This document shows, piece after piece, positions 20,261-25,907 of a stretch of DNA of 33,579 nucleotides. The stretch comes from Cyanobacteriota bacterium. Lineage in GTDB: Bacteria; Acidobacteriota; Vicinamibacteria; Vicinamibacterales; UBA2999. A program made the position numbers and the translations under genes. The stretch is from positions 1 to 33,579 of the forward strand of contig JAIEMQ010000014.1 in assembly GCA_019752015.1 (NCBI GenBank), read 5' to 3'. Every line of letters starts with the position of its first letter. The first letter of the stretch is position 1. The notes under the pieces were generated by a model. It made no database searches and was not told where the DNA came from. It was given only the letters and a program-made list of their open reading frames with translations.

Positions 20261-22900
20261 ATGTTGAAGAAGTCAGTCCTGCTCGTCGGCACCCTGATGC
20301 TGGCGAGCCCAATCCTCTACGCGCAACAACAGCAACAGGCACCCGGTCCGGTCCGGACCGTCGACGAGCGCACGTCGGGAATGAAAAAGCTCGACGGCTA
20401 CTTCCCGCTCTACTGGGATGAGCGCACCGGCGGGATGTTCCTCGAGATTCCGCGGCTCGATACCGAGTTCCTGTTCAACACCGGACTCTCGGCCGGCCTC
20501 GGCTCCAACGACATTGGTCTCGATCGCGGCGGCGGCGGCGGCAGCCGCGTGGTCCGCTTCGAGCGCGTCGGCCCGCGCGTGATGATGGTGCAGGGCAACC
20601 AGTCGTTCCGATCGAGCAGCAAGAATCCGCTCGAGAGAAAATCGGTCGAGGATTCGTTCGCGAAGTCGATCATCTGGGGCTTCGCCGTCGAGGCCGAGTC
20701 GCCGGGCCGCATCCTCGTGAACGCGACCGACTTCTTCATGCGCGATCTGGTGAATGCCGCGCCGCGTCTGCGCCCGGGCAACTACAGCGTTGACCGCACG
20801 CGCAGCGCGTTCTATCTGCCGAACACGCGCAACTTCCCGAAGAACACCGAGGTCGACATGACCTTGACCTTCGTCCAGGGTCCGGCCGGCGGTGCTGGTG
20901 GCGGCGGCGGTGGCGGCGGCGGCCCGACCCAAGGCCCGGCGCCCATCGGCGCGGGCGGCGGCGGTGGTGGCGGCGGCGGATTCGGCGGCGGCCTGTTTTC
21001 AGGATCCGTCGGCAGCGTCACGCCTTCGCCCGACGCGGTGACGATGCGCGAGCATGCATCGTTCGTGGAGCTGCCGGATGCCTCGACGTTCCAGCCGCGC
21101 AACGACGATCCGCGCGCCGGCTACGGCGGCCTGACGTTCGTGGATTACAGCCAGCCGATTGGCGAGCCGATCCAGTTCCGCTACATCCGCCGTCATCGCC
21201 TGCAGAAGAAGGATCCGAACGCGGCGATCAGCGAGCCGATCAAGCCGATCCAGTACTGGGTTGATTCCGGCGCGCCGGAAGATGTGAAGAAGGCGCTCGT
21301 CGAAGGCGCCAGCTGGTGGAACGAGGCGTTCGAGGCGGCGGGCTTCCGCAACGCCTTCAAGGTCGACGTGCTGCCGGCGGATGCCGATCCAATGGACATC
21401 CGCTACAACATGATCAACTGGGTCCATCGCTCGACCCGCGGCTGGAGCTCGGGTGGATCGGTTTCCGATCCGCGCACCGGCGAGATCATCAAGGCGACCG
21501 TCACGCTCGGATCGCTGCGCGATCGCCAGGACTACATGATCTTCGAGGGCCTGCTGTCGCCGTACGTCAATGGCGACGAGCGTCCCGCGGTGCTTTACGA
21601 GACGGCGCTGAAGCGCATCCGCCAGTTGTCGGCGCACGAGGTCGGCCACACGCTCGGCCTCGGCCACAACTACTACGACAGCAACAAGGGCTGGGTGTCG
21701 GTGATGGACTATCCGCATCCGCTCGAAGTGCTGAACGAAGACGGCACGATCGATCTGTCGAAGGCCTACGAGCAGAAGATTGGGCTGTGGGACAAGATCG
21801 CGATCAACTACGGTTACCGGCAGTTCCCCGCCGGCACCGACGAAAAGACGGCGCTGACGAAGATCCTCACCGACGCGTGGGGCGAGGACCTGCGCTACTA
21901 CACCAACCAGGACACCGACATTCATCCGAAGGTCGAACAGTGGTCGAACGGCGTCAACCAGGAGGTCGAGTTGACGCGCCTGATGCGGCTGCGCCGCGCC
22001 GCGCTCAATCGCATCGGCCTCAACACGATCCGCAAGGGCGTGCCGACGGTCATGATCGAAGAGCCGCTCGTGCCGATCTACATGTATCACCGCTACGCGG
22101 TGGAAGGCGCTTCGTCGATGATCGCCGGCCAGGACTTCACCTACGCGTTCCGCGGCGACAGCACCACGCCGGTGGAGTGGGTGAACGGCGAGATGCAGCG
22201 CAAGGCGATCGATGCGCTGTCGGCGACGTTGAAGCCGAGCGAGCTGACGATCCCGAAGAAGATCCTCGATCTGCTGCCGCCGCGGCCGCCAGGCTACGGC
22301 ATGCATCGCGAGCTGTTCCCGCGCACGACCGGTGAAGGATTCGATCCGATCAATCCGGCATCGATCGCCGCCGAAGTCACGATCGGCTTCATCCTGCAGC
22401 CCGATCGCGCGGCGCGCATGGTCGCGCAGAACGCGATCGATCAGTCACTGCCGGGTCTCGGTGAAGTCATCGATCGCCTGATCAGGGCGACGTTCGATCA
22501 GCCGACGTCGGGCACGTACGAAGCGGAGGTGCGGCGCGCCACCGAGCGCGTGCTCGTCGATCGCGTGATGTGGCTGGCGCAGTCGGCGCCGAACGCGCAG
22601 GTCCGCGCCATCGCCGCGCTGAAGCTCGATCGCATGCGCGCGCGTTCGGCAACCGCCGGCGCCGCCGCGACAATGGCGGAGGGCGAACGCGCCCATCGCA
22701 ACCTGCTGGCCGCCGACATCAAGCGCTTCCTCGAGCGCCCCGTCGTCGATCAGATGGGCGGCCGCATTGTTCCGCCGTCACCGGCGCCGCCCGGCGCGCC
22801 GATCGGCGACATGGGCCAGAACTGGCTGGCGCGTCCCTCGCAGTGCGAATGGGATGAGGTCAGTCCGGAGATGTGGCTGCACTACGTGCCGCAGCAGTGA
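20261..22900 (+). CDS. secreted DUF5117/DUF4953-type zinc metalloprotease
   Basis: The 879-residue protein has a signal peptide (MLKKSVLLVGTLMLASPILY, then AQQQQQ). The N-terminal half carries the DUF5117-type segment (GYFPLYWDERTGGMFLEIPR, VRFERVGPRVMMV). A zinc site H459-E460-V-G-H463-T-L-G-L-G-H469 follows, a metzincin-type HExxHxxGxxH, with SVMDYPHP downstream as the likely Met-turn. The C-terminal region resembles DUF4953. It probably acts outside the cytoplasm as a peptidase; the substrate is unknown. A glycine-rich insert (about residues 207-248) sits in the N-terminal half and is coded by GGC-rich DNA. The 3' end overlaps the minus-strand symporter gene by 41 bases. Confidence 0.92.
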   Translation: MLKKSVLLVGTLMLASPILYAQQQQQAPGPVRTVDERTSGMKKLDGYFPLYWDERTGGMFLEIPRLDTEFLFNTGLSAGLGSNDIGLDRGGGGGSRVVRFERVGPRVMMVQGNQSFRSSSKNPLERKSVEDSFAKSIIWGFAVEAESPGRILVNATDFFMRDLVNAAPRLRPGNYSVDRTRSAFYLPNTRNFPKNTEVDMTLTFVQGPAGGAGGGGGGGGGPTQGPAPIGAGGGGGGGGGFGGGLFSGSVGSVTPSPDAVTMREHASFVELPDASTFQPRNDDPRAGYGGLTFVDYSQPIGEPIQFRYIRRHRLQKKDPNAAISEPIKPIQYWVDSGAPEDVKKALVEGASWWNEAFEAAGFRNAFKVDVLPADADPMDIRYNMINWVHRSTRGWSSGGSVSDPRTGEIIKATVTLGSLRDRQDYMIFEGLLSPYVNGDERPAVLYETALKRIRQLSAHEVGHTLGLGHNYYDSNKGWVSVMDYPHPLEVLNEDGTIDLSKAYEQKIGLWDKIAINYGYRQFPAGTDEKTALTKILTDAWGEDLRYYTNQDTDIHPKVEQWSNGVNQEVELTRLMRLRRAALNRIGLNTIRKGVPTVMIEEPLVPIYMYHRYAVEGASSMIAGQDFTYAFRGDSTTPVEWVNGEMQRKAIDALSATLKPSELTIPKKILDLLPPRPPGYGMHRELFPRTTGEGFDPINPASIAAEVTIGFILQPDRAARMVAQNAIDQSLPGLGEVIDRLIRATFDQPTSGTYEAEVRRATERVLVDRVMWLAQSAPNAQVRAIAALKLDRMRARSATAGAAATMAEGERAHRNLLAADIKRFLERPVVDQMGGRIVPPSPAPPGAPIGDMGQNWLARPSQCEWDEVSPEMWLHYVPQQ

Positions 22901-24305
22901 CGCGTGATACCAGCGGCAGCAGGATCATTCCTGCTGCCGCTGCCACCGTCTTGAACGGCAGCCATTCCGGATAGGGAATCAGCGCGGCCATTCCGAAAAG
23001 TGGCTCTCCCCCACCCAGCCGCAGGATCAGCGAGACAAAGAACGCGGCCATCGACCCGGCGAGATTCGCTTTCGGATCGTAGAGCGCATAAACGAGCTGC
23101 GGGAACAACAGGACGAACACCAGGTCGCTCGTGAAAAACCACAGTGCCTGCACGCTCTGAACTTCCAGCGCCATCCACACCGCGCCGATGCCAATCAGCA
23201 GGATGGCGACACGCATCACCAGCGTCAACCGGCTGACCGGTGTGCCCGGTTGAATCAGGCGCTGATAGACGTTCCACGCGAACATCGATCCCGCGGACAG
23301 AATCGACGACGAGAAGCTCGAGGTCACCGCGCCGACGATCGCAGCGAGGCCGAGCAGGCCGACGATCCCCGGCGTGACGTAGCGGAAGATCATCGGCATC
23401 GCATCGGCGGGCTGCGCCGCCAGTCGATCCGCGAGCGCCGGCGGCCACACATACGCGAACGCGACGAGGCCGATCAGCAGCGGCGGAATCGTCAGCACGA
23501 TCGTCAGCAGGCCCGAAAGGATCGAGTGCGCCTGCGCGGCGCGCGGCGATCGGCACGACAGCACGCGCTGGAAATAGCAGTTCCACGGCACGCCGCCGAG
23601 CATCAGCATCATGCTGACGTCCCACCAGCCCATCGTCGAAAACGACGGCGCATGCGGCGCCGCCTGGTAGACGGCCCACGCGTGGCTGAGACCGCCGGCC
23701 GCGGACAGCGCGAACGGCAGCGCCGCGGCGAGGCCAATCCCGACGAGCAACAGCTGAAAGGCGTCGGTGTAGGCGACCGCCCACATGCCGCCGGCCATCG
23801 TGTAGAACGTGACGACCACCGCCGACAGCACGATGCCGGTCGCGAGATTGAGATCGAGGACGACGCCGAAGGTCGAGCCGAGCGCCACGAGCAGCTCGGC
23901 GCTCCAGAACATCTCGGCCAGCACCGCGGGCAGGGCGAGCACCAACGCCCACCTGGCGCCGAAGCGCGCCTCGAACGGATCGATCAGCGTGTGGTACTCG
24001 CGCTCGCGCATCCGCCGCGCGAAGAACAGGCCGCCGATGATCAGGCTGATGCCGAAACAGACGCCGCCCTGCAGCCCGCTGGCGATGCTGCTGCGGTAGG
24101 CGCCTTCCGCGGTACCGAGCAGGTAGCCGCCGTCGACCCAGGTCGCCGTCATGGTGAAGGTCGCCAGCGACACGGGCATGGCGCGGCCGGCGACCATGAA
24201 ATCGTCCGCCTCCGCGCCCTTGATACCTCCGGCGCTCCGGCGCGAGGCCAGCCAGCCGATGCCGATGAACGCGGCGTACATCACGACGATCGCGGCGAGC
24301 GCCAT
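22860..24305 (-). CDS. sodium:solute symporter (SSS family)
   Basis: The 481-residue membrane protein has about 13 hydrophobic segments. Family-like phrases include DDFMVAGRAMPVSLATFTMT, ATWVDGGYLLGTAEGAYRS, MAGGMWAVAYTDAFQLLLV and SSSILSAGSMFAWNVYQRLI. SSS proteins take up solutes such as sugars, amino acids, choline or carboxylates with Na+. The substrate is not evident; the AGGMWAVAYTDAFQ region is reminiscent of choline- or sugar-type members, which is weak evidence. ATG at 24305 is chosen over an upstream in-frame codon because everything before it lies in the operator array. The start is 15 bases from the first TTACG site of that array, so the gene may share its control with the divergent ATPase. 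Tail-to-tail overlap with the metalloprotease gene is 41 bases. Confidence 0.9.
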   Translation of the reverse strand: MALAAIVVMYAAFIGIGWLASRRSAGGIKGAEADDFMVAGRAMPVSLATFTMTATWVDGGYLLGTAEGAYRSSIASGLQGGVCFGISLIIGGLFFARRMREREYHTLIDPFEARFGARWALVLALPAVLAEMFWSAELLVALGSTFGVVLDLNLATGIVLSAVVVTFYTMAGGMWAVAYTDAFQLLLVGIGLAAALPFALSAAGGLSHAWAVYQAAPHAPSFSTMGWWDVSMMLMLGGVPWNCYFQRVLSCRSPRAAQAHSILSGLLTIVLTIPPLLIGLVAFAYVWPPALADRLAAQPADAMPMIFRYVTPGIVGLLGLAAIVGAVTSSFSSSILSAGSMFAWNVYQRLIQPGTPVSRLTLVMRVAILLIGIGAVWMALEVQSVQALWFFTSDLVFVLLFPQLVYALYDPKANLAGSMAAFFVSLILRLGGGEPLFGMAALIPYPEWLPFKTVAAAAGMILLPLVSRVTAAARSAATSPD

Positions 24306-24319
24306 GGCCGGTCCGGATT

Positions 24320-24379
24320 TTACGCTGATTTGCGTAATCATTACGTATAATTGCGTAATGGTTACGCCAACCAACGTAA
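24320..24379. promoter_or_regulatory. three phased TTACG-N8-CGTAA sites with exact 21 bp period
   Basis: TTACG stands at 24320, 24341 and 24362; CGTAA stands at 24333, 24354 and 24375. Each unit is an 18 bp palindrome with an 8 bp spacer, and successive units repeat every 21 bp, or two helical turns, so all sites face the same side of the DNA. The joints form CGTAAtcaTTACG (perfect) and CGTAAtggTTACG (one mismatch). TATAAT (24346-24351) lies within the central unit, and the ATPase start lies at the border of units 2 and 3. This looks like an operator array for a dimeric regulator. Confidence 0.75.
24346..24360 (+). promoter_or_regulatory. TATAAT -10 box placed for a leaderless ATPase mRNA
   Basis: TATAAT (24346-24351) is followed by six bases and then the ATG (24358-24360). 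Transcription starting about seven bases after a -10 would begin on the A of the start codon, and no ribosome binding site is present. No good -35 is seen, which could mean dependence on an activator at the flanking palindromes. Confidence 0.6.
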
Positions 24380-25527
24380 CGGCGGACAACCCGTTCGTCT
24401 ACGGCGAGATCGTCAGCGCCGCCGCCTTCGCGGACCGCGAGGAGGAGCGCGAGCGGCTCGGCCGCGACCTGGCCTCGGGCCAGAAGGTGTTCCTGATCTC
24501 GCCGCGCCGCTACGGCAAGTCGTCGCTGGTCCGCGACGTGATGCGCGGCCTGGCGCGCCAGAAGATCCTGACCGTCGAGGTGACCGTCGCCGCCTCGAGC
24601 TCGTACCTCGGCTTCCTCGAGTCCTACGCGCGCGCCCTGGTCGCGGCCGACACCCCGGCCGGACGCCTCAAGCGCTGGACCTCGGAGCTGCTTGGCGCGA
24701 TCCACCCCGAGCTTCGGTTTGCCGCTGATCAGTCAGGCGGCACCAAGTTCTCGATCGGCTTTCCCTCCGTTCGATCGGTGCGGGACACCGCGCGCGTCGC
24801 CGCCGAAGTGTTCGCGCTGCCGGCGCGCATCGCCGAGGCGCGCAAGCAGCGGCTGGCGATCGCCCTCGACGAGTTCCAGGCGATCACGTCGTTCGACGGC
24901 GGCACCGTCGAGAACGCGCTGCGCGCCGCCGTCCAGGATCAGCGCCAGGTCGGCTACGTGTTCTCGGGATCAGAACCGTCGTTGATGGAGCGGATGCTCG
25001 GGCCGCGCCGGCCCTTCTACAAAGCCGGGCCGGTGATGCGTCTCGACAAGATCAACCCGGACGACTTCGCGGTCTTCATCGACGAGCGCTTCAAGGCCAG
25101 CGGCGTTCGTCCCGAAGCCGGCCTCGGCGAGGCCATCGTCGATCTCGCCGCCAACGTCCCCTACGATGTGCAGCGCCTCGCGCACGAGACGTGGGACGAC
25201 GTGAGGGAGGCGGGGAAGAAGGCGGCCGGCCTCGACGATCTGCACGTGACCCTGACCCGCCTGCTCGGCGAGCAGCACACCGTGTTCGAGGAGTCGTGGC
25301 AGCGCCTGACGCTGCCGCAGCGCGCGGTGCTGCGCGCGGCCGTGATCGAAGAAGGCCGCGAGCTGATGTCGGCGGACGTCCGGGCCCGGCATCGCCTGCC
25401 CGGCACCTCGACCATTCAGGCGGCGCTGGCCGCGCTGCTGCGCCAGGACATCATCACCAAAGACGGCGGCCGCTACGTGACCGTCGACTCGCTTTATCGT
25501 GAGTGGGTGGCGCGGAAGACCTACTGA
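24358..25527 (+). CDS. PF01637-like STAND ATPase
   Basis: The 389-residue protein opens MVTPTNVTADNPFVYGEIVS followed by AAAFADREEE, a pattern typical of archaeal/bacterial ATPase-2 (PF01637) proteins. Walker A is in LISPRRYGKSSLV (about residues 48-60), and the acidic Walker B-like segment is in IALDEFQAITSF. GYVFSGSEPSLMERML resembles the sensor 1 region, and a C-terminal winged-helix-like region includes LTLPQRAVLRAAVIEEG. Members act as switches or bind DNA, but roles are mostly unknown. The starting bases of the gene belong to the third operator unit. The leaderless-like start and operator array suggest autoregulation or tight control. The bactofilin gene follows 38 bases downstream on the same strand. 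Confidence 0.85.
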   Translation: MVTPTNVTADNPFVYGEIVSAAAFADREEERERLGRDLASGQKVFLISPRRYGKSSLVRDVMRGLARQKILTVEVTVAASSSYLGFLESYARALVAADTPAGRLKRWTSELLGAIHPELRFAADQSGGTKFSIGFPSVRSVRDTARVAAEVFALPARIAEARKQRLAIALDEFQAITSFDGGTVENALRAAVQDQRQVGYVFSGSEPSLMERMLGPRRPFYKAGPVMRLDKINPDDFAVFIDERFKASGVRPEAGLGEAIVDLAANVPYDVQRLAHETWDDVREAGKKAAGLDDLHVTLTRLLGEQHTVFEESWQRLTLPQRAVLRAAVIEEGRELMSADVRARHRLPGTSTIQAALAALLRQDIITKDGGRYVTVDSLYREWVARKTY

Positions 25528-25565: not shown

Positions 25566-25907
25566 ATGAGCGACGAGCGGCGGAAGGCGGCGTGGATCGG
25601 CGGATCAATCCTCGTCAAGGGGGATGTGGTCTCGACCGAGGACCTGGTGATCGACGGCAAGGTCGAGGGCACCATCGAGCTTGGCGATCACAGCCTGACG
25701 ATTGGCCAGAGCGCGTCAGTGACCGCGGACCTGGTCGCGAAGTCGGTCTCGATCAGCGGCACCGTCAAGGGCAACGTGATGGGCAACGGCAAGGTGGAGC
25801 TCAAGTCGACCGCCAAGGTCGAGGGCGACATCAGCGCGCCGAAGTTCCTGATGGAAGAAGGCGCGGTCCTGGTCGGGAAAGTCGTTACGGGGACGAAGAA
25901 GAAATGA
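25566..25907 (+). CDS. bactofilin (polymer-forming cytoskeletal protein)
   Basis: The 113-residue protein MSDERRKAAWIGGSILVKGD carries the bactofilin beta-helix repeat pattern: VVSTEDLVIDGKVEGTIEL, LTIGQSASVTADLVAKSVSI, SGTVKGNVMGNGKVELKS and AKVEGDISAPKFLMEEGA. Each turn is about 18 residues, with small side chains and Gly at the corners. Bactofilins polymerise without nucleotides on the inner side of the membrane and affect cell shape, polarity or pilus placement. ATG at 25566 has a purine-rich GGGGGAA upstream. It is short, with almost no flanking tails, as in BacM-like members. The preceding ATPase gene ends 38 bases upstream and they may be cotranscribed; a functional link is not known. 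Confidence 0.9.
   Translation: MSDERRKAAWIGGSILVKGDVVSTEDLVIDGKVEGTIELGDHSLTIGQSASVTADLVAKSVSISGTVKGNVMGNGKVELKSTAKVEGDISAPKFLMEEGAVLVGKVVTGTKKK

Follow-up and report, generated by a model that had tools for sequence, protein, structure and literature searches.

The window, by which we mean the whole analysed stretch of 33,579 nucleotides, contains an ATPase gene that lies between a divergent symporter gene and a downstream bactofilin gene and whose start is overlain by an array of palindromic units. The relevant features are the following:

22860..24305, minus strand: sodium:solute symporter gene (PF00474), divergent, with its ATG at 24305; not constant in relatives
24320..24337, no strand: array unit 1, TTACG-N8-CGTAA, exact match with 0 mismatches
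24333..24345, no strand: inner palindrome CGTAA-N3-TTACG of units 1/2, from the sequence
24341..24358, no strand: array unit 2, TTACG-N8-CGTAA, exact match, holding TATAAT and the A of the start codon
24346..24351, plus strand: -10-like box TATAAT in the N8 of unit 2, from the sequence
24354..24366, no strand: inner palindrome CGTAA-N3-TTACG of units 2/3, from the sequence
24358..25527, plus strand: ATPase gene (389 aa, Walker motifs SPRRYGKSS and LDEFQ), proposed self-regulator
24362..24379, no strand: array unit 3, TTACG-N8-CGTAA, exact match within the ATPase reading frame, a lineage-specific addition
25309..25521, plus strand: C-terminal winged-helix part of the ATPase, residues 318-388, from an AlphaFold2 model
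25566..25907, plus strand: bactofilin gene (PF04519), downstream; not constant in relatives

The sequence-only reading of this DNA had described three palindromic units in a 21 bp period, and these are indeed perfect at 24320, 24341 and 24362. Allowing up to three mismatches, the three-unit pattern occurs once in the window and in none of 100 dinucleotide shuffles. The A of the ATG at 24358 is the last base of CGTAA in unit 2, and TATAAT is separated from the ATG by 6 nt, from which a leaderless mRNA of the ATPase gene is inferred as likely. With the box enclosed by the spacer of unit 2 and the first base of the ATG closing that unit's CGTAA, units 1 and 2 alone already span the probable -10 box and the start codon. 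A scan of the window promoter for a -35 element revealed no good one, the best-scoring promoter having five mismatches to TTGACA. With conserved dyad sites over the gene's own promoter and start, the arrangement matches that of an autoregulated operator, the -10 box and the leaderless start being inferred from the sequence. The inner palindromes offer an alternative division of the array. As claimed, the third unit is situated in the coding sequence, but at its place none was seen in the nearest orthologues.

Matches to the ATPase (E<=1e-5) were obtained in 77 of 193 genomes of the class, three of which (G109, G024 and G031) contain merely distant homologues of 23-33% identity; the remaining 116 genomes, many of them incomplete, gave no match at this threshold. 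The earlier reading had proposed recurrence of the units at 21 bp spacing upstream of orthologues as the check on its claim, and this check was passed: the set comprised the 72 distinct orthologues whose upstream DNA could be read, and in 70 of them two or more units follow each other at exactly 21 bp, with no more than 4 mismatches in the 20 half-site bases. As a control, 1,082 random windows from the same loci never showed fewer than 6 mismatches. When additional units were counted at the 21-bp pitch with 2 mismatches allowed per added unit, 64 of the 70 arrays had two and 6 had three, so that the number three holds for the window but not for most of its relatives. All four half-sites of the two-unit array are conserved, with 0.89 to 2.0 bits in the half-site columns, 0.15 to 0.80 bits in those of the N8 (one exception at 1.04) and 0.79 to 1.18 bits in those of the N3. 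In 41 of the 70 arrays a CGTAA half-site ends on the first base of an in-frame ATG or GTG, the array end is at most 30 nt from the conserved NPF codons in 60, and the TTACG-TATAAT/TATACT-NN-CGTAATG layout of unit 2 is found in 17 of the 72 orthologues (one base of the last half-site being free to vary). Two orthologues (G037 and G078) have no array despite a full-length protein with a C-terminus like that of the others. The record titles of 31 named loci are mostly Acidobacteria or Acidobacteriota, with three Vicinamibacteria or Vicinamibacterales and two Acidimicrobiia; one of the latter (L105, VFZG01000045.1) holds an 83% identical orthologue amid Acidobacteriota relatives, and its title may be wrong.

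The two-unit pattern (up to 2 mismatches) is present in 62 of the 193 class genomes, compared with 0 for the reversed control. In 61 of the 62 it is located at an ATPase start, within about 200 bp; 60 of these are at or not more than about 200 bp upstream of a listed ATPase match, as judged by contig and coordinates, and that of G138 lies upstream of an ATPase truncated by the contig end. In G035 (L137 near 2175; G035:C44) an orphan two-unit array was detected for which no ATPase was found, possibly a remnant after gene loss. Apart from the orphan and from a pair at 22 bp at another place in G142, paired arrays are confined almost entirely to the ATPase promoter, and genomes of the window's class have essentially one array each. 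Single units do not form a general regulon, a possibility rejected on the basis of 16 exact units outside the ATPase locus in 43 family genomes (by our count) versus 48 for the reversed control. The 5.9 Mb genome of the window itself contains one extra exact unit (G000:C2:135201), inside an apparent dihydrolipoamide acyltransferase gene (L001; assigned by reading, without a family search), and its forward count including this unit is 4, equal to that of the reversed control.

A neighbouring regulator as the controller of the array was likewise rejected, as no neighbour gene is constant in relatives. In about 4-5 kb around 32 loci no gene cluster except the ATPase exceeds 9 members, and the nearest neighbours of the orthologues fall into 20 clusters on the left and 19 on the right. 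These clusters are rough owing to a crude gene caller, spurious frames and loci in which the ATPase itself was missed. In the absence of a constant neighbour cluster, the general binder of the array cannot be a linked regulator.

The ATPase carries the Walker A and B motifs SPRRYGKSS and LDEFQ, invariant in 29 sequences, and Arg41, Gly44, Lys45, Asp162 and Glu163 (A2 numbering) are invariant in 18 wide members, of which 17 match ATPase_2 (E<=0.01). The window protein itself matches ATPase_2 and AAA_16 below the Pfam gathering scores (24.7 versus 33.2 bits and 27.7 versus 32.6 bits, respectively); the STAND label given to it earlier is only loosely testable. Nothing was gained from NCBIfam (0 families), PADLOC (two matches, best E 0.022) or a PDB sequence search (2fna, E 0.073). 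AlphaFold2 predicts an AAA core and a C-terminal winged helix with an overall pLDDT of 80.7 and a pTM of only 0.57. The winged-helix-like C-terminus proposed from the sequence is borne out by this prediction, with mean pLDDT values of 80-95 in blocks over residues 311-389; it is modelled with helices 319-330, 339-344 and 350-362 and strands 366-369 and 372-375, helix 350-362 being the candidate recognition helix. In VIA-align the top scores belong to TnsC chains, which align with the core only (Z up to 14.4), and matches over the whole protein included PABY2304 (Z 13.4), SSO1545 (Z 13.2) and Orc1/Cdc6 (Z near 12). The rmsd of these whole-protein alignments is near 10 or more, which we read as a different orientation of the domains. 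SSO1545 and PABY2304 also rank first in Foldseek.

Among 42 proteins the array-array match rises with protein identity from 6.9 below 35% to 10.1 at 35-55%, 15.3 at 55-75% and 26.1 above 75%; flanking DNA stays at 6.3 to 7.2 over the same bins (e.g. 6.3 below 35% and 7.2 at 55-75%). A Mantel test of array wording against the ATPase gave 0 of 999 permutations. It was run on 32 of the 42 proteins, after omission of ten (L161, L174, L177, L182, L230, L226, L180, L181, L214 and L216) with no clear array cut out or with a missing or cut C-terminus; the identity bins and a separate scoring of 24 same-genome pairs retain all 42, badly cut arrays included. Within the 32 proteins, paralogue pairs of the same genome have a median array match of 6.5 (n=16), pairs from different genomes 7.0 at a core identity below 40% (n=439) and 20.0 at 55% or more (n=29). 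Over all 42 proteins, 22 of 24 same-genome pairs score 5-9 and the remaining two 11 and 19; the score of 19 belongs to a pair of G289 paralogues that are 42% identical. Five of the six paralogues of G714 each have a different array, and none was seen at the sixth. At the level of these comparisons, array wording follows the protein and not the genome, for which a binder encoded by the gene itself would be the simplest account, although binding as such is inferred. Operator similarity relates to the AAA core with 0.76 and to the winged helix with 0.77 (pairs with a core identity of at least 30%), the partial values being 0.33 and 0.41; core and winged helix track the array about equally, so that the reading head is not singled out. 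Pairings of S-[ST]-x-Q with TT[AG][CT]G and of V/I-K-[KR]-A with GTAT half-sites hint at a possible code between recognition helix and half-site, which is post hoc and untested.

Many homologues of about 23-46% identity, encoded in other Acidobacteriota classes and on plasmids, have their own repeat arrays at the gene start. Their words include the GTATTATAC, TAACAAC, CGTTCCGAA and TTGCG types, commonly at a 15-bp pitch; a group comprising G563, G566, G580 and G503 uses TTACGC-type words at 15 bp. G109, from the window's genus, contains a 31% identical homologue instead, which lacks the TTACG pair but has a separate array at 15 bp. In a repeat test on one protein per 60%-identity cluster (significance at p<=0.05), the upstream stretch was significant in 20 of 33 core-family clusters, 14 of them at the floor of the test and 11 with pitch 15. 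The controls gave 0 significant stretches out of 33 for coding and 4 out of 32 for downstream DNA. For all 52 clusters the corresponding numbers are 29 upstream versus 2 of 52 coding and 4 of 44 downstream. When the proteins of the core family were not collapsed into clusters, significance was reached upstream in 60 of 114 stretches, in coding DNA in 3 of 114 and downstream in 21 of 107; the last value indicates that downstream DNA is not free of repeats. The test was non-significant in 13 of the 33 core clusters. Being based on self-similarity, it is weak for 21-bp arrays because the N8 varies, and by eye L177, L221, L229 and L174 among the non-significant clusters do have an array, as does L220 outside the tested stretch. 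No clear array was seen by eye in L161, L168, L214, L226, L230, L251 and two Geobacter copies in L170, one of which is significant in a longer stretch. Plasmid-borne homologues, annotated merely as ATP-binding protein or hypothetical protein, were significant (p<=0.015) in Vibrio, Bacteroides, Phocaeicola and one Geobacter copy and non-significant in Arcobacter, Marinomonas, Malaciobacter, Sulfurimonas, Parabacteroides and the second Geobacter copy. A similar design, often with a 15-bp pitch, recurs in many distant homologues.

On the Malaciobacter and Arcobacter plasmids (L277 and L275), the ATPase promoter is flanked on either side, about 55-70 bp apart, by AT-rich repeats of some 14-19 bp that are identical or nearly so, as if for a DNA loop; they were noticed by eye and are non-significant in the 11-24 bp test. 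In a more distant ATPase subfamily (L184, L186, L187, L188, L200, L201, L204 and L205) upstream CAACA/TGTTG palindromes with a pitch of about 15 bp are visible by eye, and of its representatives L184, L186 and L200 are significant at pitch 15 and L201 is not. The array design may reach beyond the ATPase family described here.

Taking these data together, we consider it probable that the array is the private operator of the ATPase, which would bind it and repress its own gene; binding, repression and signal are all inferred. The winged helix at the C-terminus of the ATPase would make the contact, and the protein would probably sit as dimers, or as a larger assembly, on one face of the DNA, 21 bp corresponding to two turns. 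Once bound, it would mask the region from the -10 box over the transcription start to the start codon and thereby repress its own transcription; the ATP/ADP state or an unknown signal would free it from the array. The ATPase had been named earlier as a candidate binder of a cooperatively bound array, a reading supported by the recurrence of unit and spacing in orthologues, and its candidacy is strengthened by the lack of a constant neighbour, the Mantel result and the predicted winged helix, without any binding data. In 23 of 42 homologues the best-scoring -10 falls within the cut-out array (no control was run), and together with the position over the -10-like box and start codon in the window this makes autorepression more likely than activation, the sign of control being inferred. 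The two orthologues without an array, the array without an ATPase in G035 and phage contigs that contain such arrays and no ATPase in the stretch examined speak against the self-operator, and the array could also activate instead of repress. The 13 non-significant core clusters, the raised downstream controls in the uncollapsed set, the lack of a convincing -35 in the window and the nearly equal tracking by core and winged helix weigh on the same side.

It is conceivable, if unlikely, that a separate and unlinked transcription factor dedicated to the ATPase gene binds the array and that the ATPase is a mere target. No binding data exist to dispute this, the winged helix could have another target, and two orthologues retain the protein without the array. 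However, array wording follows the ATPase across genomes, five paralogues in one genome differ, and no neighbouring gene is constant, so a different unlinked regulator would be required for each paralogue and lineage, each co-inherited with its ATPase.

We rate as similarly unlikely that the sites activate the promoter, the ATP-bound ATPase recruiting RNA polymerase in the manner of the STAND activators MalT and IniR. Activated promoters often have no good -35, as is the case in the window. For IniR, a STAND ATPase whose ATPase domain resembles SSO1545, activation of one operon has been reported (PMC5760070). The units of the window nevertheless lie over the -10 box and start codon, a position in which bound protein normally keeps the polymerase out, and exact TTGACA elements at several divergent promoters (L217, L228, L206 and L160) suggest that an activator may be unneeded. 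STAND activators of the MalT/IniR type have their sites upstream of the core promoter, a placement that differs from the one seen here, where the -10-like box and the first base of the start codon are part of unit 2.

Slightly more doubtful is the view that the ATPase chiefly uses the array as a site of work, whether iteron, centromere-like element or nucleation point of a DNA assembly, with self-regulation being secondary, as might be modelled on Orc1/Cdc6 or plasmid initiators beside their own genes. The fold likeness to Orc1/Cdc6 and, for the core only, to TnsC fits this view, as do the essentially single array per genome in the window's class, the plasmid location of some homologues and the loci in which, by eye, two arrays or up to four units are found. 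Yet in many orthologues the array keeps a fixed relation to the start codon, and it overlaps promoter-like sites; the gene is unmatched in 116 of 193 class genomes (many incomplete), which makes it unlikely to be required for chromosome replication, and the genes near the chromosomal ATPase loci appear ordinary by reading. Chance or a functionless mobile repeat deserves practically no credence and found no support, being ruled out by the exact 21-bp register in 70 of 72 orthologues, with half-sites strongly conserved and spacer bases variable, and by its absence from the shuffles, while single units at other genomic places are no more frequent than the control pattern.

The best solved folds over the whole protein are those of SSO1545 (PDB 2fna) and PABY2304 (PDB 2qen), archaeal AAA+ ATPases of unknown function with 16-18% identity to the window ATPase and aligned up to residues 385-386; to our knowledge neither an operator nor self-regulation has been reported for them. 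Orc1/Cdc6 proteins are replication initiators that read repeats near their own gene and share the AAA+ core and C-terminal winged helix with the window ATPase, whose gene, in contrast, is not found in most class genomes and is overlapped by its array at the start. MalT has a separate sensor domain besides its ATPase and DNA-binding domains; a sensor of the MalT/IniR type has no counterpart in the window ATPase, the 389 residues of which comprise the ATPase core and the winged helix and end there. Closest in working style among the described relatives is IniR, the STAND ATPase regulator of iniBAC in mycobacteria (PMC5760070). It resembles the window ATPase in combining an SSO1545-like ATPase domain with a DNA-binding domain and in having one dedicated target, and differs by activating another operon and by its extra MalT-like sensor and SdiA-like DNA-binding domain; in the main text no mention of palindromes, direct repeats or autoregulation was found (PMC5760070). 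RepA, the ParA-type ATPase of repABC replicons, provides a case, according to the title of the source, of ATPases that specifically autorepress their own individual operons within one genome (PMC4492784), but it belongs to a different ATPase family and acts within a partition/replication operon (operators were not compared). In the titles and abstract starts listed by searches of an open-access library no description of such arrays for this ATPase family was found, most subscription papers being outside this scope.

The differently worded arrays that follow the protein suggest a large ATPase family whose members may each read and control their own gene. A self-operator would offer a directly testable DNA target for ATPases of unknown role and a route to their bound and released states, and the matched winged helices and operators would represent a natural series in which changes of specificity could be studied. 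Should the ATPase prove to be the binder, addresses private to each paralogue would be a feature of the family in general.

Two exact TTACG-N8-CGTAA units with a gap of 3-5 were also found in 12 viral contigs (L258-L269), three of which share the same array, while the reversed pattern occurred 0 times; none of the 12 encodes the ATPase within the stretch examined. A viral scan at gap 6-16 yielded 3 contigs (no control was run), and a wide viral search by alignment brought no gain. One might speculate, very doubtful as it remains, that the ATPases form a large unrecognised class of AAA+ switches with private, changing addresses and no cross-talk between paralogues, and that the phage copies of the array serve as sensor or decoy in a host-phage conflict, in which incoming arrays would titrate the ATPase away from its promoter or bring it to the invader. 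Separately, the genome G142, which also has the ATPase with its own array, contains a second two-unit array with a 22-bp pitch (L252:2758-2797; G142:C46:19257-19296) ahead of an excisionase-like gene (PHROG 66, E 9e-8), followed by two genes with weak or no PHROG match.
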